Shown piece after piece: positions 5,037 through 58,849 of a DNA stretch of 64,000 nt; position 1 is the first letter of the stretch, and each line of letters begins with the position of its first letter. The translations under genes were made by a program, and so were the position numbers. Source of the DNA: Pomacea canaliculata (taxonomy: Eukaryota; Mollusca; Gastropoda; Architaenioglossa; Ampullariidae); NCBI RefSeq assembly GCF_003073045.1, contig NC_037590.1, positions 25,322,449 through 25,386,448 of the forward strand. Direction: 5' to 3'. The notes below the pieces were generated by a model. That model did no database searches and was not told the DNA's origin. It saw nothing but the letters and a program-made list of their open reading frames with translations.

Positions 5037-5047
5037 GTCTACTCATC

Positions 5048-5745
5048 TACTCCGGACGTGAGGACAGAATGACCACACACAAGGAGTAGCAGTACTGATG
5101 ACACCAGAGGCTGCAATAGCATGGGAACCAGTTTCCCCACGACTTATGTCAGCCAGGTTCAACTCCAAAGGAAGAAAGATCACCATCATCCAGAGCTATG
5201 AACCTACCAACACAGCTGAAGAAGAGGAAAACGAATACTTTTAACTCCCTACAAGCACTGGTTGATCGTACTTCAAACCGAGACCTAAAGGTCATAATGG
5301 GTGACATGAATGCCAAAGTTGGAAATGACAAAACAAAGGACACATATTGGGAAAGCACGGTGTGGGCAACTGCAATGAAAATGGTGAGCTGCTCACAGAC
5401 TTCTGCTTGTTCAATGACCTTGTAGTCGCAGGCACAGTTTTTCCACAGAAAACCATTCACAAGACCACCTGGACTTCACCAGATGGACATACAGAAAACC
5501 AGATCGCTCACATCACCATTAATCGCCAGTTTAGAAGGAGTCTATGTCAGAGTAAAGCGAGGCGCAGATGCAGCCACAGACCACCACCTGCTTGTGGCAA
5601 CCATGAATATAAAGCTGAAGTCCTTCTGTGACTCATCAGACAGACCACACCACAAATTCAACGTGAAGTTTCTTCGAGACCGCAGAAAGCAAGAAGAGTT
5701 CAACTGCGAAGTTAAAAACAGGTTTGCGGCGCTGGACAGGATTAC
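5048..5745 (+). mobile_element. LINE endonuclease-domain fragment
   Basis: The plus strand encodes an apurinic-type endonuclease as found in non-LTR retrotransposons and in host proteins annotated as craniofacial development protein 2-like. Visible in order: RFNSKGRKITIIQSYEPTN, RDLKVIMGDMNAKVGND, GKHGVGNCNENGELLTDFC, TWTSPDGHTENQI followed by HITINRQFRRSL, and VKRGADAATDHHLLVATMN. The GDMNAKVG and DHHLL boxes are catalytic-site motifs of this domain. The reading passes through three frames, so the copy is dead. Homology fades after about 5745. Probably the same family as the adjoining minus-strand 3' end, in inverted arrangement. Confidence 0.88.
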
Positions 5746-8665
5746 AAGAGACGTGGAAGACTGCCTGCACACGCGTTCTGGGGAAAAAAGGAAAACGCAT
5801 TGGCTATGTTTAGCACCTATTAACATGACAAATATTTGGAAAGTGTTCCCCATAAAGAAGGAAAACATGGTTGAGGACATTATTCCGCCTTGTTACGTGA
5901 GCACTATAGTGCTAACGCTGCTGCCAGAATGTCAAGAGTAGTTTTCCAATGTAATGACACGAGATGGAAATGCCAAATGTTCCTCATCTGACTATTAATA
6001 GTCTGCGCTCCAATATTTTCACAGCAAGGGTTGCCTCATTTTCACCAGCTCTTTTTTATGAAAAAGTAAGTTCTTGACTTCTCATGCAAACCAAAGGTTA
6101 CATTTAAGGACAAGTATGGTGCAATTTTTTAAAATATGAACTGAGTGTAAGATACCGTTTTGGCAAAACTTGTGAATTCGCCCCTCTGTTCGCGAGATAC
6201 ACGCCTACAAACACACTCATACACAGAAGGACGTCAACAACACAGACGTCACGGTTGTACATGGATACGTCTGAATTGCGAAAATTGCGATGGACTCACA
6301 CACTTAGACGCCGGGCCCAGAGTTGACGTGTTTTGACGTATTTGCGTGCAGCCGGGACGTCAGACTTTGACTTCTTGTTATGCATAGTGCATTGAGCCTT
6401 TACTCAGCCATTAGAACAATATTTGTACTTCTTGAGCTTTGTAAGACAAAAATCTTCATATCAAAAGGTAAAGTTTAAGTGAGGATTCGGTGTTGTTGTC
6501 TGGTTTTTTTCGCGGTGGAGGGGGAGAATCCTATTCTTTTGTCAAATATTGGGAATATGACATTTCTTTGCCGGGGGAGAATGGCATTTCCTTACTGAAG
6601 GATCGTCAGAGAACGCTGCTGGCAAGGGATTCTTCGAGGCAGCCCGTAGATGTTTTGTTATTGTCTTATTGATAAGATCATTACCGTAACATCAAAAGTT
6701 GACTGACACACGAGTTCAGTGCAACCTGCTACTGAGATAATAATAATGTTTACTTGTATGACACAATATCCCAGCCAATAGGCAAGGTAACTGGGCTATA
6801 CATACTGTCATACTGTCCAGAAGACAATAACAGTGATGTGAACAGAATTTAGCAACGTATCGTTAAACTAGATACATAGGGAAGGTTGGGCCAATGTACA
6901 TGTATATTAAACATCAGGTTATCATCACTGAAAATAATTCACTATGACTCAAGCTCGCTGCTGTGACTTTGTTCTGATATGGACAAACAGACGGTTGGGA
7001 AGTTTGACTCGTTCTTACCAAAACGCTCGCTTGATGGACCGCAACTTCATCTTGCAGTACAGCGAACTGAAACAAAGAGAAATTTATTTCTACACATTGC
7101 AGGCTGCGTGTCTAGCTTGCGCTTATAATATTACTACAACATTTTATGATAACTCCTTGGTGTGTGGTGTTAACGATAATTTTTAGATCTGGCTATTTTA
7201 TAACCGTGACATGTCAGTGACGAACGGACATGTGGTCAAGCAGTGAACTACATGTGCAGGCGCGCGCGTGCGTCCATGCTTGTGTGTGTGTGTGTCAGGG
7301 GGCGCCGTGCTGCACGAGAAGCAGATACATTTGAGCATAAAAATTCATCAGACTGCACCTTTGCCGATGACCTGTACAACGAAATGTTAAAGCTGTTAGA
7401 TTTTGTCGGATGTCGGGTGTAGCAACAAATCCAATCGCTCGCCAGTGCAAAACAAACGACAGGTGGTCACCCTGACTTACTACTGCCCACCACCCTTTCT
7501 CCCCACTCCCACCTGTAACGCAACAGGTGAAAGAGGCGCCACTAAGTTGGGTTTCATATTCTCTACCTGTGTCCTGCTTGGTAGCAATATAATCGAATGT
7601 AATTGCCCCACGCAAAGGTACACCGCGACCAATTAACGAACTACACAGTCCCCATACGACCGGTCGCAGTCAAAGGACAAATGAATGAATGACAGACTAA
7701 TGTCAGCTTCTTTACGTCAGGCTGACAGGTGTGAACACACACTAATGTCACCTTCTTCACGTGCTGCCAAGAGCGGCGGCTGTGATCGATTTCACACACT
7801 GCAGGTGAGACACGTGCACAGTCGCAGCGATGCCGTGCTTGGTGCCATCAGAACAGGCTGGTAATGATGTTGCCGGGTAACCAGTCACACTTACGCCGTT
7901 TTATCTACAAGTAGATGTCGAACATTGCCCTTCTTGTGCTGGACTGCGGTTGCTGTGTGTAGTTTATGATTGCCTCTCGTTTTGGAAGAGCAGCTAGTCC
8001 AGCTAGGTGTCTTGAGACATTGTGTTTGCATGGCTGGAGAAAGTTCAAGCAGAGTTACAATATGAAACAACACAAATAGACGTATTCTCTAGGTCAAAAT
8101 CTGGATGTATAATATCTATGAATTGATATACAATATACATGATCATTCATACTCGTACTAAAGGGACACTTCATACATCCAGCTGTGTTTACCACAGACA
8201 TCTATGATCTTATTCCACGCATTCAGCGCAAAAAGCTCTCATCACCGTGGGAAATCGCTACTACTTCAATGTAATGGCAGAAAGCACGGCTTTATTGGTA
8301 TCTTAGTGATGTAACTGCTGGGTCACGATCGAGTTTTCTGTATTCCTACGTGCTGGATTAGTCTCAAATCGACAAAATAGTCTATCAGTTAAGATTTAAG
8401 TTATGACGATGTAGTCTACAAAACACAGAAGACTACATTCTGCTGGAACCAGCATATTGTCATGATTGTGTACATGAAATTCTTCCAAGAGCAATTGGCA
8501 TATTAAGCTTTGAAAAGATTTTCAATTTGGCTGTAGGTAAGTCTTGGCTGGGTTGGAATAAATGTACATGTACTTAACACATAAAGCAACTTCCACACAC
8601 ACATATATAATAGTCATATATCATGTGGTAATTTAAATGGGACAGAAAAATCTCCCACAGTTATA
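5746..8665. other. intergenic, no gene seen
   Basis: No open frame with coding character. Items visible: a repeat-like stretch starting TAATAATAATG near 6736 (a start seen at several dispersed repeats here), a GT/GC microsatellite near 7257-7295, and a 22-bp imperfect direct repeat (ACTAATGTCAGCTTCTTTACGT at about 7697 and ACTAATGTCACCTTCTTCACGT at about 7741). Confidence 0.5.
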
Positions 8666-12061: not shown

Positions 12062-15000
12062 ATGTCACTCGATGTCTTACCTCCAATTAAGCCTTTTACA
12101 TGTCGTGCCAGTGTCCTGCTGCTGACGGCGGTGGGATCCCTGTTGCTGCTGTTGCTGTCAGACATCGAAATCATGCAGGTTACTCCCAGCAGGTTGATGA
12201 CAGACTCCACAATCAGGCGCCATGTTTATGACACGGAGCGTCCAAAGCATCGTCACTCTGCACCTGACACAGCAAGTCATGTCAGTGGCACAAGGTGCAC
12301 GCCTCGTCAGCACGTGGTCTTCTGGAAGGTACCATGTTCTCAGTCATTCCCTCCTGTAGGCAATCAGTCATTCATCTATTACTATAAACAGTCATCATTT
12401 CATGCCAACTTTCTTACTTTAATCATGTAATCATTTATTTTTCAGCTCGATGTAGTCTAGTTTTTTTCTTCATATCGCCTTTTAGACGACACTACAGCAC
12501 ACCACAATGCACAACAAAAACACGTACGATACACTACAGCACAACACAATGCACAGCAGTCACAGGTTACAGTATAGTACATTACAAAGCATAATATTTC
12601 ACTTTTCACCACAGTACAGTGCACAAAGATCGTAGATGACAGTACAGAACAGTGCACAAAGATCGTAGATGACACTACACTACAGTGCACAAAGTCGGTA
12701 AGCATGTCGGTAAGCGGTTACTCACCCCAAAAGTGTGCTTCTCTTCTTCGCGCCGACCACTAAAACATTTTCTTCTACTTTCATACGTTTGCATTTCCAG
12801 TGTTTCGCATGTGTGTGTGTGTTTTGTTTTGTCTTTTTTAAAGCAATAGCGTGTCGTTCATTAAGGTGGCTACATGTTTCTAGATCCACCTGTTACCATA
12901 GTAACTCTATTGATGCCTCCTAAGCTGTTATTGACTTTTTCACCTGTTATCTTCTGGCTTCAAATTGAGAGAGTGTTGAAAGAGTTTTCCTACTCTTGTC
13001 ATTAGAACTCTTCCCTTTCTTCCTGCCACTCGCCTAAAATCGCGAGATTATCAGACTCTCTGACCCCAGGACTTATTTTAACAGTCAGGGGTCTCGTGGG
13101 GGTCATAACCTTCAGCAGTCTCTACAGCAGGGGTGTCAAACTCAATTACCCAGGGGGCCAAATGTCACATCGTACACTAAGTCCGATAAATTTTTATTCA
13201 ACAGTAGAAAACTAAACTTTATGTTATTAAATTTGTGTAAACAAATTCATACATTAAAACAAAGTTAAAGTAATAACAAACCAAGGATTAGCAGTTTTTC
13301 TTCTTAATTTACTTTGTCAGAAGTGGACGTTTTGATATTTGATATTTTTTCTTGGCAACAGTTCGTGTTTAGAGTAAGTTTCTGTGTTGTGGAGATTCTC
13401 AGGATGGACTGCAAGTGTACATCAGTTCCTGTGTGATGTTTGTTGATCTTCATAAAAGTTGCTCACACAAATATGTACTACCAAAAGATTCGAGCCTAGC
13501 ACCCTTTGATCTCGGACCGATTCAGGGAAGTTAATTAACAGTACTAAAATCTTCGACCCGCGGCCGTGTTAGGTGTGCGTGTCAAAGGTCAGATTTAACC
13601 ATCCCTTCTGGTCATCAACAGGAGCTGTGGTAACTTGACCAGTGCACTGTTGGTGGTCTGTACAACTTCACTAAACTCATCTCATCTCTTGCTGTCCTCG
13701 ACGGGAACTTTTCTGTTGTTTGCCTTTTACTTGTCGCCGGGCCATTAACAATGATTAACTAAACTTCTTTCGCGGGCCAGGTAAAATTTCAAGACGGGCC
13801 GGATGTGGCCCGCGGGCCGGGTGTTTGACACCCCTGCTCTACAGAATATACATATAGTCACACAAAATAAGTCGGCTTCTGTGTTTTAAATCTGGTTTTT
13901 TTTTTAAGTGCACACGAATATGTTTATCATCCTAATTACTAATTCTAATCATTATCATCCTAATTACCAGGAAGCAAAGGCAATAATAATCAGGAGAGGA
14001 AGCTTCATCACTGACAAATTTTTGAATGCTCACTCATATTTCAGAATACGAAAACAGTGTTTTTGATAAGGTACTCTAATGTATTAACACAAGATGAATA
14101 CTTCTGTAGTCTGTCAGTAGGTACTCTAATGTATTGACATAATACTTCTGTAGTCTGTCAGTAGGTACTCTAATGTATTGACATAATACTTCTGTAGTCT
14201 GTCAGTAGGTACTCTAATGTACTGACACAAGATAAATACTTTCTGTAATCTGTCAGTAGGTACTCTAGGCGGAGCGAGCTGCTGTGACTAAAGTAGTTTT
14301 GTGAACATTTCCTCAATTTGAGTACACTGTAAATTGTTCTTATCGCAGCTTATCATCATAACATGAACCATGAACTGCACGAAACTTTAGATCTGCGGGA
14401 ATAAGCAAGAATAAGTATACTTTACAAAAATGTTGAGAAATTCCGTTTCTTATGAGGTACACCTCAAAACGTATTTATAGAACACTTTTTACCTAAGGGT
14501 GGAGGTTTATACGTAAATAAATCTATATCTAACTTGGTAACTCGCTGAAGCTTAAATGTTTGTTATGTATATTTTATTACATTTAATTTAAATTGTGTTT
14601 AAATGTATAGTACAAATTCAGTCCTTTTTGTAGATACATAAGACAGGGAGTTCCACAGTGGCCAACATCCTCCAGCGGTACGGGTACATTCGCCATCTCA
14701 ACTTTGTTTTGCCCAGAAAGCGGCTACATGCCGCGAGCTACAACTACCTCAACAAGCCCGGCGAGCCACTCACCGCCAGAAGCCTGATTCCGCCTCCAAC
14801 GGCCAGCACTACGACTGCTGTGGAACCACGGCATCTACAACAGCACCTTCATCCACAGCATCATGCCGCTCGATGCAGTCTACATCACCATGCTGAGGCA
14901 GCCGCTGCAGCAGTTTGTGTCGGCCTTTGAGTACTACGGCAACATCCCCGGCAGCTACATCAACGCCATCATGACCAGCAACGTCAGCAACCCACTGGCG

Positions 15001-15609
15001 GAGTACCTGGGCCACCCCGCCCTGTACGAGTCCACTCTGCGGTACATGACGTACCTCCGCAACAAGCAGGCCGAGGACCTGGGCATGGAGGCACGTCACG
15101 TGACCAACCTCAGCCTGCGCCGCCAGTACATTCAGCAGCTGGCAGCTGATTTCCACCTCGTCATGATCACAGAGTTTTTCGACGAGTCGCTCGTGCTGCT
15201 TCGGCGCCTGCTGTGCTGGGACGTGCAGGACGTGCTGTACCTGCCCAAGAACAGAAATCACCTGAAGAAGGAGCGCACCTTTAGCGCCGAGCACCGCCGG
15301 CAACACCGACTACTCTCCATAGCAGATTACGATCTGTATCACTACTTCTATCAACGATTTATCTTGACGATGAAAAGCCAAGAACCTGATTTCCAAGAGG
15401 AAGTAAGTTACTTCAAGGAGCTGCTGGGCCACGTGCAAACACAGTGCGTGCAGGAGGGTGAAGTGACTGTGAACAGGTCGCAGTGGCATGCTCAGTTCAC
15501 ACTGACACGCCGAGACTGCCAGCTGATGCAGCAAAGTGAGCTCCCGTTCTTGGATGACATTATAATGGACGCACTAATGCGTTATCACCTGAGCGTTAAA
15601 AACAACTAG
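12062..15609 (+). CDS. galactose-3-O-sulfotransferase family protein, two coding exons
   Basis: Exon 1 is 12062-12328 (89 codons). Exon 2 is 14634-15609. The intron is phase 0, with donor AAG/GTACCA and acceptor TTTTTGTAG. Exon 1 encodes a signal-anchor (about residues 18-33, VLLLTAVGSLLLLLLS) and ends in CTPRQHVVFWK. Exon 2 begins IHKTGSSTVANILQRYGY, completing the PAPS 5'-phosphosulfate motif. The 3'-phosphate motif is YITMLRQPLQQFVSAF, and DFHLVMITEFFDESLVLLRR is identical to the paralogue at 2909-4345. Predicted length is about 415 residues, normal for the family. Exon 2 changes frame twice within 25 bp (near 14792 and 14816). Alignment to the paralogue (NGQHYD then LLWNHGIYN) shows each is one missing base. 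With splice sites and motifs intact, sequencing error is as likely as pseudogenisation. The role would be Golgi sulfation of galactose. Confidence 0.88.
12489..12698. repeat. degenerate tandem repeats in the sulfotransferase intron
   Basis: Two related arrays: a roughly 41-bp unit (CACTACAGCACAACACAATG-like) at about 12490-12560, then a 28-33-bp unit containing CAGTGCACAAAGATCGTAGA at 12611-12698. The words ACTACAG and GTGCAC recur across both. They lie about 160 bp after the exon 1 donor. Confidence 0.7.
13128..13836. mobile_element. non-autonomous hAT element in the sulfotransferase intron
   Basis: A 709-bp element with terminal inverted repeats CAGGGGTGTCAAAC and GTTTGACACCCCTG. It is bounded by a perfect 8-bp target duplication CTCTACAG (13120-13127 and 13837-13844). 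No transposase frame remains, so it must have been moved by a relative. Near the right end it carries the palindromic GGCCCGCGGGCC block also found in the element at 8674-8918. The exact duplication suggests a fairly recent insertion. It lies between the splice sites and should not affect the coding sequence. Confidence 0.93.
14071..14268. repeat. tandem repeat of about 47-55 bp, four units
   Basis: Four copies of a unit starting GGTACTCTAATGTATTGACA and ending TAGTCTGTCAGTA. The two middle copies are about 47 bp and the outer ones longer, with an extra CACAAGATGAATA. Lies in the sulfotransferase intron, about 370 bp before exon 2. Confidence 0.88.
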
Positions 15610-34600: not shown

Positions 34601-37600
34601 GCTGTACATGTGACTAGGACAGATCGTAGAGGAAGGCTGACAGCCAGGGGCTGGCCATGTACCTTGTGTTTGTCCCCTAAATGTCGTATAGAGGAATGCA
34701 ACTATCTCCGTTTCACAACGGTTGGAAAACAGTCCTGGCCAAGCAAACAGTGTATATAAGGTTTAATCGCAAATAATGCACAATGGCAGAAATCTTCTCA
34801 CGAAGGAATGGTTAAGCAGGCTGATTAAACTTTCATTTTTAAACATGCATTTGGCTGTCAAACACCCGTGTGATAGTCACAGCAACACCTGATATTGTGT
34901 AGTAGTTACAGCTGGTGTAATATTTACCCAACACATAATGAGTATGATTGCATGCCGTTCAGGATCCTTGGTGTAGTCGTCGAAATATCCCCCGTTCTGT
35001 CACTTGTCCTGGTTTAGGACTGTGGGTGTGACCAAAGGACGATATGCCGTGGTTACCCGAGCATCAAGTTGTGTCACCATCAAAAGCGACAGAAAATAAA
35101 GTACAAACATTAATGCTGTTTATACCTCATTTTCCAAACACAAATACGCCGCAAGTCTCGATTATCGCTTCAAATAAGTGGGTGCGTGTACGTTTGAACT
35201 ACAGTCGCCCTTCCCCACCCCGGGTTGAAATGTGACAGGCCCTACTGTATGACAGCAGTGGCAGCGCTCCACCCGGAACAGCATTTGACGTGTAGGCGCG
35301 CAGTGCCCACTGTTAGTAAACGGAACAGGGTCGGTTGGCTGCCAACTGATAATTGTTGAGGCCACCTGCTCGAATCTGACGGTTTGCTGTCGAAGGGAGG
35401 TGGGAGCGATCCGCGTGAATCATGGCCAAGGGCACTGGTGTGTTTGATGTACAGTTCCCTCCTTGCTTGTTAGCGGCAGGAAAAGATGATGTCCAACACC
35501 TTGGCACCTGCGTTTAACTGACAAAGTACCTGTCTCCAGTCACTGTTGGCTTTTGCCAGTGGCTTCACTGATGGTAAATTTTGATGGTTTGTTTGAAATT
35601 TTGAAAGGATGTCATGTTTCCGGTTGTTTTTAAAAAACAAGTTTTGAAAACTTTAACTAGCAGTAGCAAATCAGGAGTCGGCGTAGTTAAAAATATTTAG
35701 TATCATGGAGAAACATGAAGCCAATAGGTAGTGTAGTCACACTCCGCCTTCAGCTGTGGATACCTAAACCCAACGCCAGTTCAGTAACTGGTAGAGGGTG
35801 GAGCCGGTTTGTGCTGTTGGCGGTAACGGTTGAATGAAATATTTTTCATACAATGTGTAGCTTTTGCTACTGTGTCACATACCTGTGAGGTTAGTGTGTA
35901 CCTGTTGATATTGTGGATCATGGTAACCCATAAAGTTACTTTTATTTTTGCATGTGGTAATGTCAGCCCAATGAAGTCTTGGTTCTGAAGTTGTGTCAGT
36001 TTAGTATAAACTGCCAAGCAAATTTGTTGTCATGTTAGAGTGACATAACTGAAGAATTTTCTGCAGTCATATTATGCCCAATGTCACGTCAAAGTCTGGC
36101 AGACTTTCAGTTTAAGTTATGAAGTCAGGTCATCTGGTTGGTTTGTTGGTTTGGCAAGAAAGTGCTTCCTCCTAGAGGTGATGTCACACTATGAGGTAGA
36201 GGGAGGAGGGAGGGACTGGAGAACTAGGAGGAAGCCCCTGATGGCCAGGCTTGGCAACAGGTGTTAGTGACAAGCTTGTTTTAACCACTACACTACTGGG
36301 TGCCCCCAGAAGTCAGGCCACAATACTGTGTTGCATTATTAATTAAGGATAGATGGTGAAGACTGTCATCAGTGGCAGAAAACTTTAAGTGTAATCTGAA
36401 ACATCTGATTGTGAACTGCAAGGTCTCCTTCCACTGTAAGAAAATCACATATGGAGACCTAATTATCTACCTAGTTCACAATCTTATGCTTTGGATAAAC
36501 TGATGTGTTGCATTTTCTAACTGTGCATGGAGAAAAAGCATGGTGAGGAGGGTTTCAACAGGCAGTTGGCCTTGTTCACACGATTATTTCTAAAGACATC
36601 TCAGTGTGATTCCTGCTTCAGTAGGTCTGTTGTGCTCCTTATTATTGAAGATGGCCTTTTGCTGCTATGTCACTGTGACAGCATGAAGTAAGAAGGCATT
36701 ATGGTCTGCAGCCCTAGGTGTCTGCATCTAATTAAAGCCAGTGCCTTCCTGGAAGACTTACCTATAAGCTTATGAGATGTTCCCTTGAGACCAATAATTA
36801 TTAGAAACTATATGAAAATCTCACTGAAATATTACAAGATATTTGGTTTTATTAACACACAAGCATGTGTTAAGTTTGTGGTAAGATATTCTTTGACATT
36901 ACTTATTGCAGCATTTTATAACTTTCCATAAAAATGCATTTTTTGCAACAAATTTTAGCCATTGTTGTATCTTTTCCAAAGTAATAAAATCATGAAAGCA
37001 GACTTTGAGATCATTGTAAGTCGTTTCTCATATTAGCATGGATATATATTTCAGAACTTTCATTATAATTTTAATTAAAAGTAGATGTTATGTTCATTTT
37101 TTTAATTCCATATTTCTGCTTGACTTAATGTGTCTCTTGTGTTTTCAGGTCAGGTGGAGAACCTTTTCAGGACAAAAGATTGCTATGGTTACGACAAAAT
37201 GGTGGTCAGATACCCAACTCTGGCTGGACAAGTTTCAACTCTGAGCTCTCCAATCTAACCAGTGGCTCCAGTGCTAACAGGTATTAGCCTTTTTTTTTTT
37301 TAATTGACTCAGGAAAAATAAAATACCAATGTGGCAGCGTGTGAAAGGTCACATGGCACAGTTCATGAAAGGAATAATGATGTGTAACTGAGTCTTTATG
37401 CATAGGTTATGGCAGAGCAAAAATCCCTTTTCTGATTTCACTTAATGCCAGTAGCTTCCCTTGCTGAATCAGGTACTTCTTGCCAATCCATTGCAGTTAA
37501 ATACTAAAGCAGAAATGAGAAAAAAAAACTGATTTGATTTAGAGTAAAGAGTGGTCTATGGACATTTATTTTTACAGAGTTACATCATATACTTCTATTG

Positions 37601-40600
37601 TCTTGGGAATGTGTGTGTGTGTAGTGTCGAGTGGTTGTTACAGGAGAGACAGGCAGACCCAGAACAGGTGTTGCTGAATTTAGGTTTTGGCGGTGGCCTC
37701 TCCCAATCTGCACCAATGTTTACTCGCATCCCAGAAAGGTTCTTGCAGGCACAAAATGCACCTGTGCGTGATGAGGTGCCTCTGGAAGGAAATGAAGTTG
37801 CAGTTCAACAGAACTCATCTCGAGGTCAGTTTTATTTCACAGATGTCAGTAACAGTGTGTGTGACAGTGAATACTACACATACATTCTTAACAGGGTTCC
37901 AGCATACTTTTTCAAAGAGAGCTGTTCTTCTGACCACAGTAGTGATTCAGACAGCTTTGTGTGTCCTGACTCATTTTGCTGCTCCCATTACACCATCATG
38001 CCAGGCCAGGCAGTCAACAGAAATGTGTGTGCAGAATGGCAAGGCAGTCCCAGAAGCACTGGTACCACAGACTGTGTGCGTAGGTGATGTTTCATCAGAA
38101 ATTCAGTTGGGGAAGTGGTCTTCTGCAAAGGATGCAGTGTATCGTGTCCAATATATAGCACAGAGCTCACCATACACAGACAGTGGGTGTGTCAGTTCAG
38201 GTCAGTGGGCTACACAACAGTCATTTTCCTTGGAAGAAGACCCTCCAGATCCCGATGAATTTTCAGTTTCATCTGGCTCTACAGCTACTCAAGATGATGC
38301 AGAGTATGGGTTTTTAACACTTGCTCCGAATGAATCCCTTGTCTAAGAGTGATGTTGCTTCTACAGCAGACACACTGTGACATTGCTGTTTACATTTCAA
38401 ATGAATGCAAATTATTATACTAATGCTTAATTGAACATTTTGAATTGATACATGTACAAATGATCTCCATGAAAATAATTTGCTGGTGAACAGGAAAGCT
38501 CTGTAGTTCCCAGTGTTACAGCATGCATCTTAGTGATCTTGACAGTTGTGACTGTACTGTGTTTATGGTTCAGTTAAGTAGAGAGTCAGTTGAAAATATC
38601 TTTTTCAGACCATAAAATCTAGAGCATTTTTACTTTTCTCTCCTATAAACATCAAATAACTCTTATCAGACATGCAGATTGCTTGGTTTTGTGGCTAATG
38701 TTTATTTTAATGCTTATTTCAAATGATGAGTATGACAAGGGAGCAGTATTGTAAAACATGTATATGCCTGGTCACTTTCATCGTATTCAAAATTTTTTCT
38801 AAAGTCACTGTTCAGCTGCATAGATTTGAAGTTGTTTCTTTAACTTTTATTTCTGGAGAACTGTACAAAGTCTCAGGGATAATCATCTGTGGAAAATTCT
38901 GTCAACACTCATGTTGGGAATTTATTGCAGTCTGTGGCACATTATTGTGCCAGTCATGTGCACACTTTGTTAAAAAGTTGATATTTACAATTGGGAATGA
39001 ATCCTTTACTAGGGGAGTTAAACATGGTTTATATGGTAACATATTTGAAGGATGTGGTACACTGTTGTTGCAGCAGCTGAGAGTAGAGCATACTGTTATT
39101 ACAGATGATCAATTCCTTGCTTAGCGTCACATTTTAAAACAGCCGAGGGTCAAAATACCTGGAGTATTTCAGTTTCAAATGCTTAATCCTTTCTTGAGCT
39201 GACACTCAAATATATATTATATGTGTGTGTATGTAATTGGGCATTATTTCACTTGGTGCTATCTGCCAATATAGATGATGACATCACGTGGCAAGAACAT
39301 AGTTATTTGATTAATTTCAGTATCACATTTGCGCTCTTTTGTTCTTTCGCCATTTTTTAAGGCATCAGTGACATCGGGACAAGCACCATACTATATTTAC
39401 TGGCTTGGCTTATCTGATAAAGTGCTTTGTTTTGAAAAATAACAAGTGTTTAAAGTTTTGAAGATTTGTGATTATCTTGATATTGGTATGGTCATTGCTT
39501 TCTGTAGCAGATTATGATTTATTAAAAGATATTTTTAATATTATTTAATTAGATTGAATTAACTACAGCATTACAGCATATCTCTGAACACATGCTGTTT
39601 GTATGTTGGTCTTCTTATTACCAGCTGAATGTCCTTCCAAAATTATTTAAGGATTTAATTATAAAAATGGAGATGATGGGTAACTGCTGGATTAGAAGGA
39701 TAATCTTTGAAAACTGCTTGATTTATAATTTCTTGTTAGAAACAGAATTTTGTATTGTTTAATTATATAAATGAGTACTGCTGAAAACATAAAATGTTGT
39801 TGTCTTCATATTTTCTTAAACTTCAGCAAAATATTAACTTCTTGTAAAAATACATGGGTGCATTCTTGAGACATATTGTAGCAAGTGCAGTAATTTTGTT
39901 TCTCTTACTTTCTCTCTCTCACACACACACATATGTGCACAAGCATACACAACAAATATAGAAGCCAAAATGTTTTGTGGAGTAACATTTCACATTGTAA
40001 GCCAGTAATGTCAGCACTGCACCAGGTTCGGCAGTCCCAGTTACTTCTCCATTCAGTGGAAGTGGAGGTAATGTGTATCATCTTATCTAAACAGTGTACC
40101 TAGTTGGAGAAGTCTGTTATTGTTTTTTCTTTGTTTTAATTGTGTTTGAGCTTGAGATCATGATAATAGTTTAATTTTGAAACACATTGCACACCATGAT
40201 AAGAGAATGTGTACATGTGAGTGGGTAAACTTTATGAGCATGTGGACCTGTCTATGTTTATTGCCTTTATAAAGAGCATCAGCTACTCTGTATGTGTCAC
40301 ATTTTACATTTAGGTTTGTTATAAAATAACAATATGAAGTATCTTTTTGAGCTTTTTTAATTATATCAGAACAGTTTATACCTTAACACTGTCTTTTTTA
40401 AAAATTGAACATATTCTAGTTGAGAGAAGGTTAACACACTAGAAATAAAACCACTGCTTCTTGGTCTCTGACAGTCCTATTTATGAACCATCTCTGGCAG
40501 TGTTCACTACCTGCTTATACATTCACAGTAGAGTTATGCAAGTGTTACTAATTAACCAGATTTACATATAAGTTGCTTGTAATAAAGATTTCTTCTTTCT

Positions 40601-43600: not shown

Positions 43601-46600
43601 GTAGTGTCAGCCTTGTTGATTTGCTGACTAAAATAAGTGATGCTTTTATCTTAGGATGTCATCAGCCATGGCTCTTGTTTCTACAGCTTTTCAAGCTGCA
43701 ATAGATAAGAAACTATGTGTCCAAATTCACAGACAGGTCCTATGTTTAGATTCCTAGGATGCATTTTTTGTGTACCGTTAAAAGTATGCACATGTGTATG
43801 TATGTATATATTCTCCTTGAATGTATGTGTACAAATTTATGTGTGTAGTGAAATCTTGAAATCTTTCATAAATGCAGCTTTGTGGAATTTTGTCTTACTT
43901 TTAGGTAGTATTCATGTGCACGATTGCCTGTTTTTTGTTTTAGATAGGAAGACTACAGCAGCTCCGTGCTGCTAAGCAGCACCTTGATGGTAAGTGCAAG
44001 ACTGTGATTGAAGCAGCTTTGTCAGCCTGGAGATCATATTTCATTTTTATAAACTTTTTAAAGTCTTTTTAAGGAACAGAATTAAAAATATTGTTATCTC
44101 ACCCAGATGGATAGACATGTTAGCTTAGTACACAATAATGTTTGTTAAAATAATAATCATTTGCATCAGCTTGAATAACAAAGTGCACCCACACAAAAGC
44201 ATACATCTATAGCATGTGTTGATATGATATAGTAGTGTGCAAGGATTCTAACTTGGACAGAACGCTTACACCTGCCTTGATATTAGTCTGATTATCAGTA
44301 CTTGTGTTTTTATGCAGGTCCCATGTTTGATGATTAAAACTATGTGGTAAATGTATCCCTTTTCATGTCAGATGAGCTGCCAAGAATGAATAGCATTCAT
44401 TCAGACAGTAGTGGTTTTGGGGATGCTGAAGTCATTGGAGAGTGCACCACTCAAGACACACTTTCTCAAAGGGTAAATTTACTCCTTTTATGGTACTTCA
44501 CTAGCTATTCTTCAGTCATTAGCTTAAGTGTTTGTTAAGAATACTGATCTTCTTGCTTAGTACTTGGACCTTATATTGTTCAAGTAATCCATCATAAAGG
44601 TGTTACTGGCTTATGCATTTTTTGGCCCTATCAAGATCACGGTAGAGAAAAATCTTAGTGCATTACTTAGAGGTTAATAACGAGCACACTGAAACTTAAT
44701 GTTGGTGACAATGACAGAGTTAATGATAAAAATTGAAAGTTTTGAGACAGTTACAAAACAAATTTGTTCATGATCATCCTGGTGTCATATACAGCCAGAT
44801 ATAAAGTCGCAGGAATTCAGTCTATCAATCATTTTTAGTTAAATGTCAACATTAATAGAAAAGGGTTCTGAACAGTTTTTAAAAATGAAATCTGGAATGC
44901 TTAGAGATAGCACTTGTTCATTGTAGCCTTACCCTGGTATATATGGTGAAATGAAAGTAGCCTATTAAGACATAAGAATTTTCAGGGTAGATGACTATGT
45001 TTTGTTGTTGTAGTTGTAAATGTAAGTCACCTGTTTATGTTGCTATGGTAAGTGTAGGTAACTTTGTGATGTTGTGTGACAGGTTAGCCATCTTGGTAGC
45101 AGCTGTGAGAGCAGCACTACTCAGAAAAGCACCTGTACTCTGGTGAACAACATGGTCGTTGAGCATTCACCGCATGACTTGCCCACGCTGCCAAAATTTC
45201 CGCTAATGGTGTGTGTTGTATGATTTCTTTGAGGATTTTAGAGGGAAAGGATATTTTTTTACTTTTATGATACCCGTTATTCAGCACACTTAATTGGGGT
45301 ATATGAAGGATATATGTATGATTAGATAATCTTCTTCTTCTTCTTTCCTATACGCCCCCAGTGGAGCATAGGGCCGCAACCACACGCCGCCATCGGACCC
45401 TGTCCTGGGCCCTTTCCAGCTGGCACCATGTCATGCCAGTGTCTCTGCCTCTCTGTGGACTGATCTCCTCCACGTCTGTCTGGTCTCCCAACCTTACGCC
45501 TCCCCTGTGGGTTCCAGCCCAGAGCCTGTCGCGTTAAATTGTCGACTGGCTTTCGTAGGGTGTGGGCCAATCCAGCCCCACTTCCGCTTCTTGATGTCTA
45601 GGCTGGCAGGGTTTTGGTTGGCTCTCTCCACAGGTCCGCATTGGAGATCTTCTCAGGCCATCGGATGTTAAAGATGCGGCGCAGACAGTTGTTGATAAAT
45701 GTCTGTATCTTGTTGGTGATGGCATTTTGTCACCCGCCATGTCTCAGATCCATACAGAAGGACTGACTTGACATTGGTATTATAGATGCGGATCTTGGTG
45801 TGTAGAGACAAAGCCTTGGAGTTCCAGATAGGTCTTAGGGTGTGGAATGTAAGCCTGGCTTTGTTTATTCGGCTTCTGACATCGTCATCTGTACCTCCGT
45901 CTTTGCTGCTGACTATGCTGCCAAGGTAGGTGAAACGGTCAGACTCTGTAATACATTCTCCATGTAGTTGGAGTGGGGCTTCTTGCTTTGTGTTGATCCG
46001 CATTACCTCCGTCTTCTTGATGTTGATGGTCAGGCCAGTCATTGCTGCTTCTTCTGCAAGCCGAGTGAGCTTTGTCTGGCGTTGTTGATTGTGGGACAAC
46101 AGGCTGATGTCATCCGCATAGTCAAGATCCTCGAGCTGTCTGGCGAAGGTCCACTGAACGCCCGTGTTGCTGTTAGAGGTTGTTCTCCTCATGATCCAGT
46201 CTATGACGATCAGGAATATTGTTGGTGAGAGCAGACAACCTTGCCTCACCTCCAGTCCTCACTGCGAAGGGTCAGACAGTTTCCTTGTGTATCACCCGGC
46301 TGTCGAGTTCTCATACAACTGCTGGATGATGTGGCAATGAACTTTGGTGGAAATCCATAGTGCCGCATTAGTTCCCAGATGGTTTCCCTGTCTACGGAGT
46401 CAAAGGCCTTCTCAAAATCTACAAAGGTTATGTATAGTGGTGACTGCCATTCGAAACTATTTTTTGTCTATTTAATTATTTAATTATTTCACTTGACTTG
46501 GTCGAGCCTAATGAGATCAACAAACTTCAGATAAACAGTCTGAGTTACATGATAAATAAATACAATCAATTTTATTTGTTAGTAATATTAACAACTGAAT

Positions 46601-49600
46601 AATGTATAACTGAATAAAGAAATTGTTTTGTGAGCTATCAACAAAGCATTAGTGATACTTATATGTGATAATTATAATGATCGTCTTTATTTTGTATTAG
46701 TTTTTTTATAATTGTTGTTGCTGCATTTGATTAGTGTGAGTTGTAGAGCAATGCAAGAGGCACATGACCTGGATTTAAGATGATGCTATTAATCCTAGAC
46801 TAGTCATCTTCTGTATATGTCTATATATAGCAAAAGAAATGGTTGTCCCACCTTTGTCTTTGTTTTTAGAACGTAATGAAATATTTCTTTCCTCTTCCCT
46901 CAAGGAAGCATGCTAAAATAGTATTAAATGGTTCAACTGAACCTAGTCATCTTTGATTCTAAATTTAAATATTTTAAGCTCATTGTGTCAGTGAAGGTAA
47001 CAAGATGTTTGTTAAAAAGTATAAATTACAATTTTACATTGGTATTTAAGAATTTTAAAGGCATGTAAAATATCAGCATTCAGACAAGATTCCCTTTTCA
47101 CTCCTAGTTGTATTATTTAAATCACATTTTACCTAATCTTAGGTAGTTTATTAACATATGCAGTTTTAAAAATAGTTAAAAATCTTACCAACAGATTTTC
47201 TGTAACAATTTTGCTTTAGGAAGGTAAAGAAAATGTAGAGCCTCTACAGACATCAGATGGTGCATCATTCAAGCAACATCAAGCAAAGGATGGTGCCCGC
47301 TACATATCTTGGTGTTATGTCCCTCTACAAAGGCGAGCAGACAACTCCTCTACACAGACTGAAAAGCGGTTATCTGGCAGCAAAGCTTTTGTTCTTGGCA
47401 AAACCAGGGTCTCTGTGGTGGTTCCTAGCAATGACAAGCCAGTAAATATAGCAGTGGCTGGTGTTCTAAAAAAGTCAGGTCATCAGGTGAAAAATGAAAG
47501 CTCTTTGTTCACAGAATTGACTTTGGCAAATGCACACAGAGGTGAACAGCTGAACACACCTCATCATGCTGCTGCAGCATCAGTGCTCCCTCCATCTGTC
47601 TTACAATCATCAGGAGATAATCTAGAAGCTGTTGATGATATCCATGGCAGAGAAGATGAGTTTGAGGAGTCTGTACGTGCTTCATGGTGGCACACAAGTG
47701 ACCCATCTGAGCCATTGAGGCATACAGTTTACAGCAAGGAGAAAAGACAACAAAGACACTGCTTCTCAGAAGGAGATGAGGTGGATGGTGGGTCAGCTGC
47801 ATCACTAGGGCCAAGTAGTGTTTATTCCTGTGCATCCACCAATGAGAGTATAACTAGTGGTGTGGGCTCCGATGTGCTAGACTGCCAGAAACTGATGAAG
47901 CTCATCAATCAACCCACTAGCTTCAAGGTGAGTGTGGCATCATAATGGGAAATATTTTGGTTAATATAGAATAAGATAAGAAAAGGTAAAATTATCAGTT
48001 CATTTTAATCGGCATAGATGCTGATGTTTTCAACTGATATATGCATTTTTAAAATTCTTTTTCACAAAGTTCCTTGGTTGAGATGCTTGGATGTAAAGGT
48101 CACACAGGATTTTAGAGAAATTTCATGTTACAGAGCTACATATTCTTCTGGTAACATTCCGTAAAAGACTGCATTTAGCTTATTGGACCAGAACTGTTTA
48201 CTGTGCTACTCCATGGTTACTAAAGGTCACATGACCATTATAGTCACAATCTGGGCATTCTAGGCTAAGTGTGTGGAAAGAGAAAGTAGATACAGGGTAG
48301 AAAAGTGAGACATTTATGACTGTCAGTGATCTTGACCAAAACATTCTTTTTTCCCTGGTCATTTCTGAACACACCAGCCCCTTCTCTCTGTTTACCACAA
48401 TGGTGTCACGATAATTCAGGAACTTTGTAATAAAAAAATCCGCATTCTGTTTTTAACTAACAAAGATGTTTCTTTTTAAATTTCTTTGCTTGTTGATTTA
48501 TAATTTTATATAGGTTTAAAAACAGTGTTGTCACATTCAAACATCCTTGAATACTATACTTAAGCTTGATTTGAATGAGGGAGAGAAGCTGAAGAATGAG
48601 AATTTTGTTTCCTAAGGTACTGTAATTTCTTGAACATGAGAGTAAAAGTCGCCTCTAGAATTTACCTTTTTGCTCCATTTTGAAAGAATCACCATCATAG
48701 GTGACTTCTCCCCATTTGTTTATGCGAAACATAACCACAGCTGTTGTTAGTAAAGCATATAGTGGGAAGCAAATAGCTGAAGAGTTCAACTATTGGGGAC
48801 AAGCCAGATGTGTGCGAAGTAGCTGGTTTCATATTGGTGTAGTTTGGTGTGAAATGGAGACCCCCGTTTGACCCAACTGTTGGATGGATACCTCACCCAT
48901 TGAGAACTGGGACAGGAAAGGCAGTGAGGGAGAGGAGTCAGGAGTCAGGAACTGCCCTCTCTCCCCTCACACAAGTGCTGGTCCCCAGAAAATAAAGATC
49001 AGGGAACTATCTGTGTCTTTGCAAATGGTAACAGATCCTTTTTTAAGAAACAAGATTTTTGAGCTAACAGAAAACTAAATCTACTTTCTTATATCTTGGC
49101 AAACTGATAACATTTTTCTGAGATCCTTAAAGGACAGAAAACTCATGTCTGAACTAGCATCCTACCATGCCACATTAAGTTAGGACTCTGATGCTAAGAC
49201 TTGGGCTGAACAGTCTTGTTGATAGAGGGAAAGTCAGAACTCAAAGCATATGATCATCATCACTTCTAGAATCTAGATTAATGCAGTCTGTCTTGTATCA
49301 GGCCTGATAACTGAGTGAAAGATAGCTACATGGCATATATCAGAAAACCGCACCTTCTTTGTGTTGCTTGGGTGAATAAAAACATTCAAGGCTATCTTTA
49401 TTATTTGAAAGTAATGACTTTGTGCTGGGTCCTGCTTAGATGTATTAGGTAAAATTCAAATAATATTTTAGAATTTTTTTCTGCCTTTTTGTAAATATTG
49501 TAAATAGAGTTTAACAGTCCTTCCTTATAGACCAGAAAATTGTAATCTATGAAAAAAAATTCTTTTGTGCATGTGTAAAACACATTAGCAGAAAAAAATC

Positions 49601-52775: not shown

Positions 52776-53175
52776 TTATGATCACAAGGTGGCGAAATTT
52801 CTTTGATGAGAAATGAAGATCTGATGATGGTTCAAGAAATACCTTTTTTTTTGTGTGTGTGTGTGTGTGCACCACTTTCTTACAGAAGCCAGTCTCAGAT
52901 AATAGTGTCAAAACGTACCCTTTCCACTGTGAAGTTCTACCTAGTGTCTACCAGCATATGAAAGTACCGTACTGATACAGTTTGAATGGAAGAATATGGT
53001 ATAGTTCAGCAAGCAGAAATAGAGAATCATACTGGCACTGCGCTTGTGGAAGCTAAGTGGATGGAATATTCACTAGTAATGCACTATTGAGAATCTGTTC
53101 CTTCTAAGAAAGGAAAGGCTTGAGTGTTTGTCTGTGAGTTCATGGGCATGGACATCATAAAGGTCACAGTTCATG

Positions 53176-53728
53176 TATAATAATAATAAATGCAAAATTT
53201 GTAAAGCGTATACTCACACTCCTAAGGAGTATGCTCTTTGCGCCAAAGAACAGGAACGAAACATGGACAGCATATAAGGGACTGGAAAATAAATAACCTA
53301 TGATCTATAAAAAGAATAACAACAGTACTAATGAAGAATAAAATCAAAACGGAAAGAGGACCCAAATAACAACAAGAGCAACATAATATTGCAGAAGGAA
53401 GGGTGTAAAAAAGGACTGACATTGTGGGAAAGATTGTTAGGAGTAATGTTTACGGAAGAGATGCGTTTTCAGTGCACGTTTAAAGAATTCAAAAGTGGGT
53501 AGGTAACAGCTATGGAAAAGGAGAGAGTTCTACTGTTTCGCTGCACAATAACTAAAACTCCTGTGGCCATATGTTGTTATTCTGGTGACAGGAAGAGTAA
53601 GAAGATGATTATCAGACGAGGAGCAGAGTTGTCGAGCTGGAACGTAAGGGAAGAGCAGTTCAGAGAAATAATCAGGGCAGGTGCCAGCAAAAAAATTAAA
53701 ACAGCATGGACAGTGTGTACCAGAGGCG
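53176..53728. repeat. dispersed repeat, about 550 bp, unclassified
   Basis: Starts TAATAATAATAAATGC and AAAGCGTATACTC. Downstream words GATGCGTTTTCAGTGCACGT, TTTAAAGAATTCAAAAGTGG and GATTATCAGACGAGGAGCAG belong to a repeat type I recall from many marine invertebrate and fish genomes, usually next to a GCGCTTTACA-type start. No coding potential. Its right border coincides exactly with the start of block B (53729). Confidence 0.6.
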
Positions 53729-54275
53729 ACAACTGAATAATGTATAACTGAATAAAGAAATTGTTTTGTGAGCTATCAACAAAGCATTAGTGATACTTAT
53801 ATGTGATAATTATAATGATCGTCTTTATTTTGTATTAGTTTTTTTATAATTGTTGTTGCTGCATTTGATTAGTGTGAGTTGTAGAGCAATGCAAGAGGCA
53901 CATGACCTGGATTTAAGATGATGCTATTAATCCTAGACTAGTCATCTTCTGGTATATGTCTATATATAGCAAAAGAAATGGTTGTCCCACCTTTGTCTTT
54001 GTTTTAGAACGTAATGAAATATTTCTTTCCTCTTCCCTTCAAGGAAGCATGCTAAAATAGTATTAAATGGTTCAACTGAACCTAGTCATCTTTGATTCTA
54101 AATTTAAATATTTTAAGCTCATTGTGTCAGTGAAGGTAACAAGATGTTTGTTAAAAAGTATAAATTACAATTTTACATTGGTATTTAAGAATTTTAAAGG
54201 CATGTAAAATATCAGCATTCAGACAAGATTCCCTTTTCACTCCTAGTTGTATTATTTAAATCACATTTTACCTAA
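53729..54275. repeat. duplicated block B, downstream copy
   Basis: Near-identical direct copy of 46591-47136, 7.1 kb away (three single-base indels, no substitutions seen). Left neighbour is the dispersed repeat ending GTACCAGAGGCG; right neighbour is ATGTAAGATGCTC. Confidence 0.93.
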
Positions 54276-55016
54276 ATGTAAGATGCTCAAGTGTCTTACA
54301 GAATGTGCAGCCATTTGCAGATGCAGATCCATTTGAACAATTATCTTTACTCATACACTTAATCTAACTGCTACACAGGGTATCATGTCTCTGCATGGAT
54401 ATTTGCTTTGGCCTTATTATTAGACAGGGTTAGCTTTATTTCTTCACATCCTTGACCTCTCTTAAAACGTTCTTATTCCCATTACTGTTACTTGTTTATT
54501 GTGGTGGTGTTCTGTCCATCGTCAGAATAATTTTTATAATAAAAAGCAGCATAGCCTCACAGTCATTACAAACTCTTTGGGTTTGCATGAGCTGCAAAAT
54601 TTTGTATTGTCTGTTAATTGTGCTACGCACATCATCTGTGTTTTATGCTTACATGCTAGCCTTTTCCTAACAAGCAGCTCAGAGAACTTCTCTCCATCTA
54701 CCCATAGCTTTTATCTGCTTAGTGTTTCAGGCAATATCTCTGCATCTTTGTTTTCTGAGGACTGATGTTGTGTACTTCATGTTTAATGATTGATATATGC
54801 TTCTTTGCTTCAGAGTGGTTTTGCAGAGATACTATTTTTATTTTGTGTGGATGTCTGTCTGGTCATTCAAGACTGTGTAAAGTGCATATGTGTTTGGTTT
54901 TGAGGATCAGTTGGCTTTGTTACAAAATATATTTATATGTTTGATAGCAGAAATGGAAGTAGTGTACCTGTATGACTTGTGATAAACTTCAAAAATTTTA
55001 GAATGCAACAATTGAA

Positions 55017-55022
55017 AATAAA
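55017..55022 (+). terminator. candidate polyadenylation signal of the ITPRID-like gene
   Basis: AATAAA followed by TTGTTTATT and further T-rich sequence. It is the first such word beyond the repeats downstream of the stop at 52775. Confidence 0.4.
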
Positions 55023-55040
55023 ATTGTTTATTAAATTTAA

Positions 55041-56644
55041 ATGCCTCATATTTTATTAGTACAGGTATTTAAAATAGTATATTTTGTTAAAAATGTTATT
55101 ATTAAGGCTATATTTTGATGTATATTTACAGTTTTGAATTTTTGAAAGTGTACATTTTGTATATTAGATTTTGTAATTTTATTGTGCTGTCATGGCTGCC
55201 CTTCCAACAATCAGTTTCAGACTTATTTAAGAGAACATCGGCTTCCACAAATACAGAACATAATGGTGTCTAATGGACAGTTTTGAGAAGTGTTTTCAAG
55301 TTTCTCATGCACAAAGTGACCACATGAGGCATCAGTGAACAGTGAAACCTACAAAAAAAACAAACTATTAACTATGTATTGTAATCATTCCTAGGTAACA
55401 AGACTTGAAGTGTCATGAAAAAGATCTAAAACACTGAACTCAGGTAAGAAATACAAATAGAACCTTCCCAAAACATTTGAGGGAGAGCTTTGTGCATGTG
55501 TGTGTCTCATGAGAGTGACCTCCACCTAGTCTGCAATTTGTTCATTGGACTGGTGGATGTTTGGAGAGTAAATTTATAAACTTATGAACGTACCAATATC
55601 AGCCATTAGTACCATATTAAAAAAAATAGTAGCACTATTGAAGGCAGCTTTAGTTATTCACAGACTGTGTAGTTCATTGTCTAAAGTTAGCACAGTGTGA
55701 TAATATGTTGCTGCCTTCTATTGGGTACAAGGCAAGCTGCTTCGTTCTTTCCTCATACACCACACCATTATTGCCTGTTATGAACTCGTGTCTAAGAATT
55801 CACGAGCATTGTTGGAGCAGCCAACACATTTTCTACAGCAATAAATAAACTTTGTGGCCAGTGCCGTATCTCCTGCCTGTCCATACACATTGATGCCTAC
55901 ATGAGCGACTCTTGCAATCACCATGTGTCTCGCTGCCTTTGATTTTTGTCTTGTATCAGTACACCCAAGGCTCTTTGCATGTCTGTAAAGATCACAAAAT
56001 GTAAAAGCTATTACAGACTCACTCATGAGTGAGGCAGTGGACTGGACGGACTGGTTCAACAAGGAGAAGCCGGTCTCCGCGTTTTTGTAGCACTTAATGT
56101 TTACTCCAAGCAGCAGAGCTCGTCCCCACCTTGTCACTCGTCACGTCTACGGAACGCAAGGAAGGTATAGCTGCCATTTGAAAGGAGGACAGCTACATCT
56201 GTGCAATGTAAAACTGACGGTTGGAAGGAAGTTGGGGTGGGAGGGGAAGGTGAGAGAGCCGTGTACAGGAGAAGGTGTGTATAGCAGATTGAAGTCAAGT
56301 CATGCCTCCACTGTCGTCTGAAGTACACATCACCGTCAAACAATTGTTTAAACTGCAATCAGTAGAGTTTGTGTTAATTTAAAAGTAATTTATTGTCAGT
56401 GTTTGATCCATTTAGCGTTTGAAAATTATTTTGTGTACAACCCGCTCTTTGCATGCAGACGATATACAGTATATAGTTTGTAAATGCTATTGCACAGTTA
56501 GTCCGAAGGCTTTACCATTCCACTATATGCTGCAAGTTTTAGCTGGGGGATTCTGGCAGACGGCTTATCAAACCAAGTTACATGATTTTAATTACCTCAG
56601 TGGTTTGGTCTATGCATGACTGGCTGCACGTGCTGTTGAGGGAA
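55041..56644. other. intergenic with one unexplained minus-strand open frame
   Basis: AT-rich. A minus-strand frame of 119 codons (56137 to 55778) has varied composition, several Cys near its end (YCCRKCVGC) and no recognised domain. No splice sites or promoter were assigned, and it may be a relic of a mobile element or chance. Confidence 0.3.
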
Positions 56645-56812
56645 GCCCGGTTAGTGCCTGTCACCAACACAGTGAAGGTTGGCTGTCCTGGGTTCAGCTC
56701 TCGTCTCGGGCATGCTGTTCTTTCTCTGCATGTGGCATCTGCTTACAGGGCCATAATATAGCTTTAGTTGCTGGCTCGGCTTGAAACAAATTCCTTCCTC
56801 CCACACGTGCTC
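56645..56812 (+). mobile_element. tRNA-derived SINE, 5' truncated
   Basis: Same family as 22480-22618: GGTTAGTGCCTGTCACCAAC, then GTGAAGGTTGGCTGTCCTGG, a B-box-like GGGTTCAGCTC, and the body TTTCTCTGCATGTGGCATCT. It keeps the middle part lost from the other copy but lacks the first tRNA bases. Confidence 0.82.
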
Positions 56813-58744
56813 TTGTCTCGGGGATGCAGAAGAAGGTGGGATAATAAATCAGATGGTTGAGTAGATGGGGTGTCCAACATCGGTTAGAACTCTGGGGGAC
56901 AGACTTTTCGCTTGGGGCTCGTTGTGACCTCATGTTCCCATGCAGACTCGCAGGCTTGTTTTAGTGTGATCCCATCTAGATCGTGTGTTCATCTGCAGGC
57001 CTTGAGAGATTGGTTTTAGAGTGTTAACGACCTCTAGCTAACGTTCGGCTTTGATTTCTGTTGCACGTTCAACGATTTACAGACTGTGATACATAATTTA
57101 CAGGTGTGGTTGCGCTAGTGAGCAGGTGGACTTGGGGTTCTTGCTGTGGTATGTGGAGATGGTACTCTTACATTTGTCTTAGTTCTAGCTAGAAGCTACC
57201 ACCGCGTACAACGCACCCTAGTACACATGCGAGTGCAATGTATTTTTTCAAAAGTTCCAAACTGTCGGACTTGGCTAAGGTGAGAAGGAAGAACTTTGGG
57301 ATTTTTAGCTAAAAATCGTCCTGAGCGCCCTTGATGTTTTATACTGGTGAATGCAGATGTAGTCAAGATAGCTACCACACTGCAGGCGTTGGTAGGCAGG
57401 CAGCATTGTTCTGAATAATAATCTGTTCAGCTTCACATCAGGTAAACCAGAGAGAAAATTTGCGACCGCATCGAGAGACACGAATCTTCTCAACACGTCG
57501 AAGGCGAACGTTTAGTGCTCTACAAAGCTGATTGTGGACCTCCATAGGAGGACATCTCTAAGCAAACCAGTGTTACTTGAGGAATCAGAAAATGCAATCG
57601 GATGATTTGCATCTCAAACCCCAGAAGATGAAAGCTGTTCCCATAAAATAATTTGCTACCAAGTGTTGGATTGTTTTGGAGACAAGTATGCTTGTTATAC
57701 CAGCAACATGCCAAGATTCGTGTTTCATTTCTTAGTTATTCGCTCTGCTTCTGTGATTTCTACATTTCTCGGGTATTAAGGGTATAAGTACCCCCTCCCC
57801 GTTTCCATGAAACAACTACATCAGACACAATGTGTGTGCGCCATGATCTGCTGTCTTCTTTGGGGCACTGGTTATCTCGCTAATAATTACAATAACAACA
57901 AAATAACCCACCGTTCAATTCCCATGATAACAAACAAGATCAAAGGCAGCGGATATTTTGTAATGTATTCATAACTGACAATATTTAGCCGTTGGACACG
58001 ATCGTCAGCAGGTGTTCTGGGCACGGTTACCTGTTGCTGGATACGATCACAAGTTCATGATGTGACTGACTCTGGTCGTGTTTTTATTTATTGCAAGCAA
58101 TTTATTGTTCTCGTGAGTAACAGTTCTGTGCCTCTGAAATAAAATGATCAAGGCAAAATATCTTTGCTTTCTGTTGCCTGTGTGTGAGATGGGTTAGACG
58201 TCTGTGTCTGTCGACAGGCTGTCAATTTATTCTGCATGCTTATATTAATTAGCACGCGTACTCACATCCGGGCTGCCCCATGATGACATGATGTCAGGCA
58301 CGAGACAGAAGGCCGAGCAATTAATGTACATGAAAGGCGACAAGGGCAAGTGTGTTTAGAACTTGTGTTTACACTCTCGACATGCTCTCTCTGTATGTAC
58401 ATATACACACCCTACCATCCCTCTCTCATGCGCGCGCGCTCCGGCTGGTGCATGCCTGACGTGTAAATGTCGACTGCCAAAGTTCAAAACCCACCTTGCA
58501 GCTTCCTCAGGTGCTACAACAACCGGGCAGATGTCACTAGTAGGTGCACATTCCCTTCGCCAGGTGTCAGCGTGTGCGCTGGAGTTGGGGAAAGGAGGAT
58601 TGCGCACAGCCGCGACAGACGCTGCATACTCACAGAAAGAGAGGGTCAGGGGTCAGTCTGAAAAGTTTTTTTTTTGTTGATTGGACACACTTAGTCACAT
58701 GTGGCTATTTCTCACAGACGGTCGGACTAGCTATTAACCACAGC
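56813..58744. other. intergenic, no gene seen
   Basis: Mixed composition. GC-richer patch near 58380-58640 with overlapping open frames on both strands and a GCGCGCGC run, none with a recognised domain or phased splice sites. Confidence 0.45.
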
Positions 58745-58849
58745 TTTCACTTGACTTGGTCGAGCCTAATGAGATCAACAAACTTCAGATAAACAGTCTG
58801 AGTTACATGATAAATAAATACAATCAATTTTATTTGTTAGTAATATTAA
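58745..58849. repeat. block A, downstream copy
   Basis: 105 bp identical by eye to 46487-46591. Flanked left by CTATTAACCACAGC and right by ATTATTTCCAAGG, neither of which occurs at the intronic copy. Confidence 0.92.

Follow-up and report, generated by a model that had tools for sequence, protein, structure and literature searches.

The stretch of DNA analysed here (the window, 64,000 bp on NC_037590.1 of Pomacea canaliculata, positions 25,322,449–25,386,448) contains, in an intron of an ITPRID-like gene, a young 5′-truncated retrotransposon of the long interspersed nuclear element (LINE) type, followed by a 32-bp filler and by two blocks, A and B, that match loci 12.26 and 7.14 kb away, respectively. 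Judged from its sequence, the segment 45331–47136 has about an even chance of being one recent germline insertion composed of LINE, filler, block A and block B, in which the 5′ end of the LINE would have been closed by copying of local sequence. The insertion has no evident function.

BLAST comparison of the query 46301–47400 with the window gave exactly two matches besides the query itself. Block A (46487–46591) was identical to 58745–58849 at all 105 positions on the same strand (E-value 2.8e-50), and block B (46591–47136) agreed with 53729–54275 in 545 of 548 alignment columns (E-value 0.0), with no substitution and three one-base length differences (G/GG, TTTTT/TTTT and T/TT), all located inside about 100 bp. 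The blocks have one base in common, the A at 46591, and together span 650 bp. Their matching loci have the same orientation and lie in the reverse order along the chromosome, that of B before that of A; the intron flank left of A differs from the sequence at 58744, and the flank right of B differs from that at 54276. The identity of A, the near-identity of B, the overlap of about one base, the downstream position of the matching loci at 7 and 12 kb, their order, orientation and different flanks had all been given in a preliminary description of this stretch and were confirmed. Searches of the whole genome (440,159,624 bases), in which only the best candidates were scored and very common words were skipped, found no third place for either block, and no poly(A) was present at the block ends. 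Self-comparison of 94 kb of contig C1 (the window and 30 kb more) at ≥90% identity over ≥60 bp returned only the A pair, the B pair and, beyond the window, a single tandem array. At the same thresholds no pairs were obtained from 60 kb of contig C3; the sample is too small for the calculation of a patch rate.

The LINE was recognised as such from its dispersed family, the variable 5′ truncation of the copies and its reverse transcriptase, for which an RVT_1 match was obtained in the minus-strand open reading frame (ORF) 45668–46258. Its end had been placed at 46463 in the preliminary description; similarity was found to stop at 46454 instead, leaving 32 bp unmatched before block A. Compared with a six-copy majority sequence, to which it contributed along with its five closest copies, the window copy differed by one substitution and 12 small insertion or deletion (indel) events in 1,110 bp, and compared with the majority of 30 copies by eight substitutions and 12 indel events. 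With one substitution against the six-copy majority, the LINE looks young as well as the patch.

Target duplications were surveyed in 30 distinct copies of the family including that of the window; of the other 29, nine extend beyond the fetched locus and 20 end inside it. Rows L003–L008 represented sites already fetched and were left out of the counts; L008 is the same as L033, whose longer locus includes an end, marked by a word of 9 bp that are all A or T. A shared word of at least 7 bp, no more than 6 bp from the truncation, was found in 16 of the 20 copies, and one of at least 10 bp in 14 of the 20, which correspond to 11 of 17 independent sites since four copies share one target word. The shared word was of 7 bp in L030 and L050, and in L039 a 10-bp word was located 12 bp further out; no shared word was present at the truncation point in the remaining three of the 20 (L029, which is 5′-inverted, L034 and L055). 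The window copy likewise had no shared word of ≥6 bp at 46454/46455, that is, no target duplication at its 5′ truncation. The word TAATCTT, however, spans the 3′ border of the LINE (45327–45333) and recurs at the outer border of block B (47134–47140). TAATCTT occurs in the window five times on the plus strand and once on the minus strand, and two of these occurrences are at the two outer borders. Of 20,468 control positions, 51 gave a border match as good or better, spanning the boundary within four bases; among the 3,429 AT-rich positions the number was 11. The scores of the inner joints (2 for LINE/filler, 4 for filler/A and 2 for A/B) were below the 7 of the outer borders. A search with both flanks joined matched only the two flanks, which overlap by exactly the seven bases TAATCTT; no other locus was found. 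The border word as evidence for a target duplication around LINE, filler, A and B is suggestive, not decisive. The coordinates of the features are collected in Table 1.

Table 1. Features of the insertion, its borders and the matching downstream loci (window coordinates).
Feature	Position	Strand	Remarks
Left border word TAATCTT	45327..45333	+	Composed of TAAT, the four final target bases, and the first three bases of the TTC tail of the LINE; left-hand candidate for a target-site duplication
Young 5′-truncated non-long-terminal-repeat (non-LTR) retrotransposon (LINE)	45331..46454	-	TTC tail at 45331 (3′ end), truncation at 46454
Filler, 32 bp, AT-rich	46455..46486		Between LINE and block A
Block A	46487..46591	+	Copy of 58745–58849, 105/105; only these two places found
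Block B	46591..47136	+	Copy of 53729–54275; no substitutions, three one-base indels; only these two places found
Right border word TAATCTT	47134..47140	+	Its TAA doubles as the end of block B; right-hand candidate for a target-site duplication
Old dispersed repeat, probably a 5′-truncated retroelement	53175..53736	-	Borders source B; relatives 80–84% identical
Probable source of block B	53729..54275	+	Lies past the final open coding stretch of the ITPRID-like gene, in its 3′ untranslated region or in intergenic sequence
Probable source of block A	58745..58849	+	AGTAATATTA at its end, recurring at 58893

The absence of substitutions in about 650 bp places the divergence of the patch from its matching loci below about 0.46% (95% limit); at 1% divergence the probability of this result would be 0.0015 (computed with 651 bp). 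Since the stated heterozygosity of the sequenced animal is 1–2% (PMC6129957), the patch is probably younger than a typical allele split and may be polymorphic; the copy probably still segregated in the species.

The lack of a duplication at the LINE 5′ end, the presence of TAATCTT at the outer borders and the youth of both LINE and patch together favour a single insertion. Target-primed reverse transcription (TPRT) of the LINE would have started at 45331, as its TTC tail and border indicate, and complementary DNA (cDNA) synthesis would have halted after about 1.12 kb, where LINE similarity ends. The free end, rather than being joined directly to the other target end, would have switched templates to nearby DNA or RNA and been extended, first over the 32 bp of filler and then over the 105 bp matching 58745–58849. 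A backward jump of 5.1 kb, from 58849 to 53729 with one shared base, would have been followed by the copying of about 547 bp matching 53729–54275 and by the final joining to the target at a TAA/TAAT microhomology, which under the single-insertion model amounts to up to 3 bp (TAA) between B and target. The identity of the sequences was observed; the polymerase, this order and the single event are our inference, and the copying may have been done by a repair polymerase or by the reverse transcriptase of the LINE. Capture of local sequence and repair by template switching where the LINE ends 5′, both raised in the preliminary description, are thus favoured together, the support from the borders becoming weaker when they are read strictly.

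Several observations weigh against a single insertion. The duplications of the family are usually of 10–13 bp and end before CTT, so that only TAAT fits strictly, and three of its four letters (TAA) belong to block B too. In this strict four-base form the match was equalled at 988 of the 20,468 positions and at 360 of the 3,429 AT-rich ones, and the border test was itself picked after the sequence had been seen; on account of the weak strict test our confidence in the single insertion was lowered from slightly better than even to even. The only fully readable inner joint, that between A and B, has 1 bp of microhomology, which is low for microhomology-mediated break-induced replication (MMBIR). 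No template was found for the filler, whose first 24 bases matched no other genomic site with two or fewer mismatches. Finally, the indel-rich stretch of the LINE is a sign of poor local consensus quality.

A filler made of a further templated piece was considered and discarded: a 10-bp inverted match at 47168–47177, about 31 bp right of block B, was equalled by 11% of shuffles. The right end of block B is straddled by an inverted repeat, ACCTAA-TC-TTAGGT, at 47131–47144.

The joint between LINE and patch might instead have arisen in two steps, an ordinary LINE insertion being followed by a later double-strand break that removed the 5′ part of the LINE with its duplication and was repaired with filler, A and B, by MMBIR or as a class 2 templated insertion, the LINE machinery being uninvolved. 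Such a course would explain why the LINE lacks a target duplication where it is truncated, the geometry of the patch (same strand, local, two templates) is like that of templated insertions in other genomes, and a strict border match is common (988/20,468). Such a history is nevertheless rather doubtful, as two separate young events would be required within 32 bp and the full TAATCTT match of the outer borders would be left to chance (51/20,468).

An assembly artefact, in which a chimeric or mis-laid PacBio read entered the contig and was not mended by Pilon, had been named as an option in the preliminary description and appears unlikely, with evidence on both sides. The assembly was made from raw reads with SMARTdenovo and base-corrected with Pilon, from an animal of 1–2% heterozygosity (PMC6129957). 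The copies of B differ only by one-base indels (3/3), an error type of long reads and the same type as the small indels of the LINE, 12 of which fall in 1,110 bp. The small-indel load of the 30 LINE copies fell into two classes, 22 copies at ≤0.25% and eight at ≥0.64%, the window copy (45345–46454) being at 1.08%. This pattern, which is that of an unpolished long-read consensus, suggests that patches of such consensus are present in the public snail assembly. On the other side, seven of the 29 other copies are indel-rich too, although two of the eight indel-rich copies are old (L048 with 53 substitutions and L052 with 20) and their indels may partly be real. One indel-rich copy, L040, keeps an intact 11-bp target duplication, so that the indels mark poor polishing and not, by themselves, a chimera. 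A patch of 105 and 546 bp between collinear flanks is far below the mean read length of 10.1 kb (PMC6129957), the window contains no N, and a random misjoin predicts no common border word.

The downstream loci are probably the originals and the intron the copy, with modest support. The 10-mer AGTAATATTA occurs three times on the plus strand of the window, at the end of both copies of A and again at 58893, 44 bp past the end of the A source, and the minus strand has one occurrence, at 7126; the GC content is 17% on either side of 58849. The repeat that borders the B locus was 80–84% identical to the 39 relatives scored and is probably a 5′-truncated retroelement, to judge by a left end that is fixed and a right end that varies. 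In three of 11 aligned copies (L010–L012) the similarity extended to 53736, 8 bp into B, where six of the eight bases agreed (chance probability about 0.4%, taking 25% for each base), and from this weak match the repeat seems to run into the B source. An 8-bp ATGTATAA match beside source B was also considered as a target duplication of the old repeat and was not used, since no convincing duplication was present in any of eight relatives. The recurrence of AGTAATATTA, the overlap with the repeat and parsimony (one inward event against two outward events meeting at one base) thus favour the direction that the preliminary description had assumed. The reverse, an ancestral A–B sequence in the intron from which fragments were copied outward, one to 53729 and one to 58745, would account for the abutting blocks as one original sequence and is very improbable, because both outward events would have to coincide at a single base, A is tied to its downstream site by AGTAATATTA and the equal GC content, and the old repeat seems to extend into B.

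The junction of A with B is also the one expected from a tandem duplication or a circle of 53729–58849 (5,121 bp), and their order would fit a retrocopy of a spliced or circular RNA in which A was joined to B by back-splicing; this is hardly credible, since the left flank of source A was not brought along. A spliced or circular RNA was rejected as well for want of GT/AG at the block edges on either strand (58850 begins ATT, and GCG precedes 53729), and the foreign flanks of A and B in the intron mean that no larger piece of the 53729–58849 circle was inserted.

A single insertion with local copying would belong to a known type of event, here in a form that can be read. For ZfL2-2, extra nucleotides at 5′ junctions have been described and ascribed by the authors to template jumps, with reference to unpublished data (PMC2666801), and Zorro3 cDNA switches to ribosomal RNA, similar switches to other cellular sequences being mentioned (PMC3510499). 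The snail locus resembles both in carrying extra sequence on the 5′ side of a LINE and differs in its length and origin, 682 bp (32 of filler and 650), the greater part of which comes from two chromosomal templates nearby, in backward order. Chimeras of LINE-1 with RNAs have been reported, template switching being one proposed route, and the passages that deal with them do not mention a local DNA template (PMC13174262). In the class 2 templated sequence insertion polymorphisms (TSIPs) of Onozawa et al. a DNA patch is likewise copied from elsewhere with its sources intact (PMC5110952), and at the snail locus the source loci are still present and the intron insert is a copy. The snail patch, in contrast, is local (7–12 kb) and fused to a LINE, whereas the human class is described as coming from distant regions and as probably RNA-derived (PMC5110952); TAATCTT at both outer borders would, as a target duplication, also count against a class 2 TSIP, a class marked by polymorphism among individuals, by the lack of such duplications and of poly(A) and by junctions like those of non-homologous end joining (NHEJ). 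The joining of copies from at least two templates at a single locus is common to the snail patch, to MMBIR or fork stalling and template switching (FoSTeS) and to the strings of templated insertions found in copy-and-paste clusters of cancers by the Pan-Cancer Analysis of Whole Genomes (PMC7025897, PMC8421209). MMBIR-type insertions occur as germline variants, with 2–12 bp of microhomology at 80% of junctions (PMC8421209), while the snail intron has 1 bp at its sole fully readable inner joint. A literature search gave no paper on LINE insertions with captured nearby DNA; most subscription journals were outside its coverage, and absence in print is not implied.

Other members of the LINE family were encountered in the course of the analysis. 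An older copy (about 84% identity) occupies 4898–5040 (plus strand) and 5185–5800 (minus strand) of the window, in opposite orientations as in a 5′ inversion, and the young copy L029/L007 also has a 5′ inversion, its 3′ part being followed by a gap and then by LINE sequence in the opposite orientation. L037, L041 and L051 (C4:17752339–17758399) and L038 (C12) have identical truncations and an identical 12-bp target word, gatatggactat; the three on C4 are spaced about 2.8–2.9 kb apart, and one insertion seems to have been amplified inside a larger repeat. The flanks of the two uninverted copies without a shared word had no near-identical local copy: that of L034 (622 bp) had one other match, on C1 at a distance of about 97 kb (67 bp, 79% identity), and that of L055 (717 bp) had 13 other matches at 68–77%.

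An interval of 83 bp separates the patch from the next open coding stretch (47220–47945), which is uninterrupted. A Pfam KRAP_IP3R_bind match in 37548–38087, one of the five ORFs given for the gene, is the sole support for the gene call. Elsewhere in the window, an inverted pair of about 600 bp with 69% identity was present at 3349–3946 and 14649–15253, 11 kb apart.

If the locus is an artefact, it marks an untrustworthy place in the public snail assembly. If it is a single insertion, it would be a clean young case from an invertebrate germline of a LINE 5′ end closed by local copying, in which the sources, their order and the length of the jump can be read, and an empty site, with GATTAGATAAT running straight into CTTAGGTAG (string GATTAGATAATCTTAGGTAG), would be expected in other snails. 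It is tentatively proposed that a TPRT intermediate in the snail germline used neighbouring DNA, or its RNA, as successive templates, by which two local fragments would have been dispersed in a scrambled order that is still segregating. LINE activity would then be able to shuffle unique neighbouring sequence.

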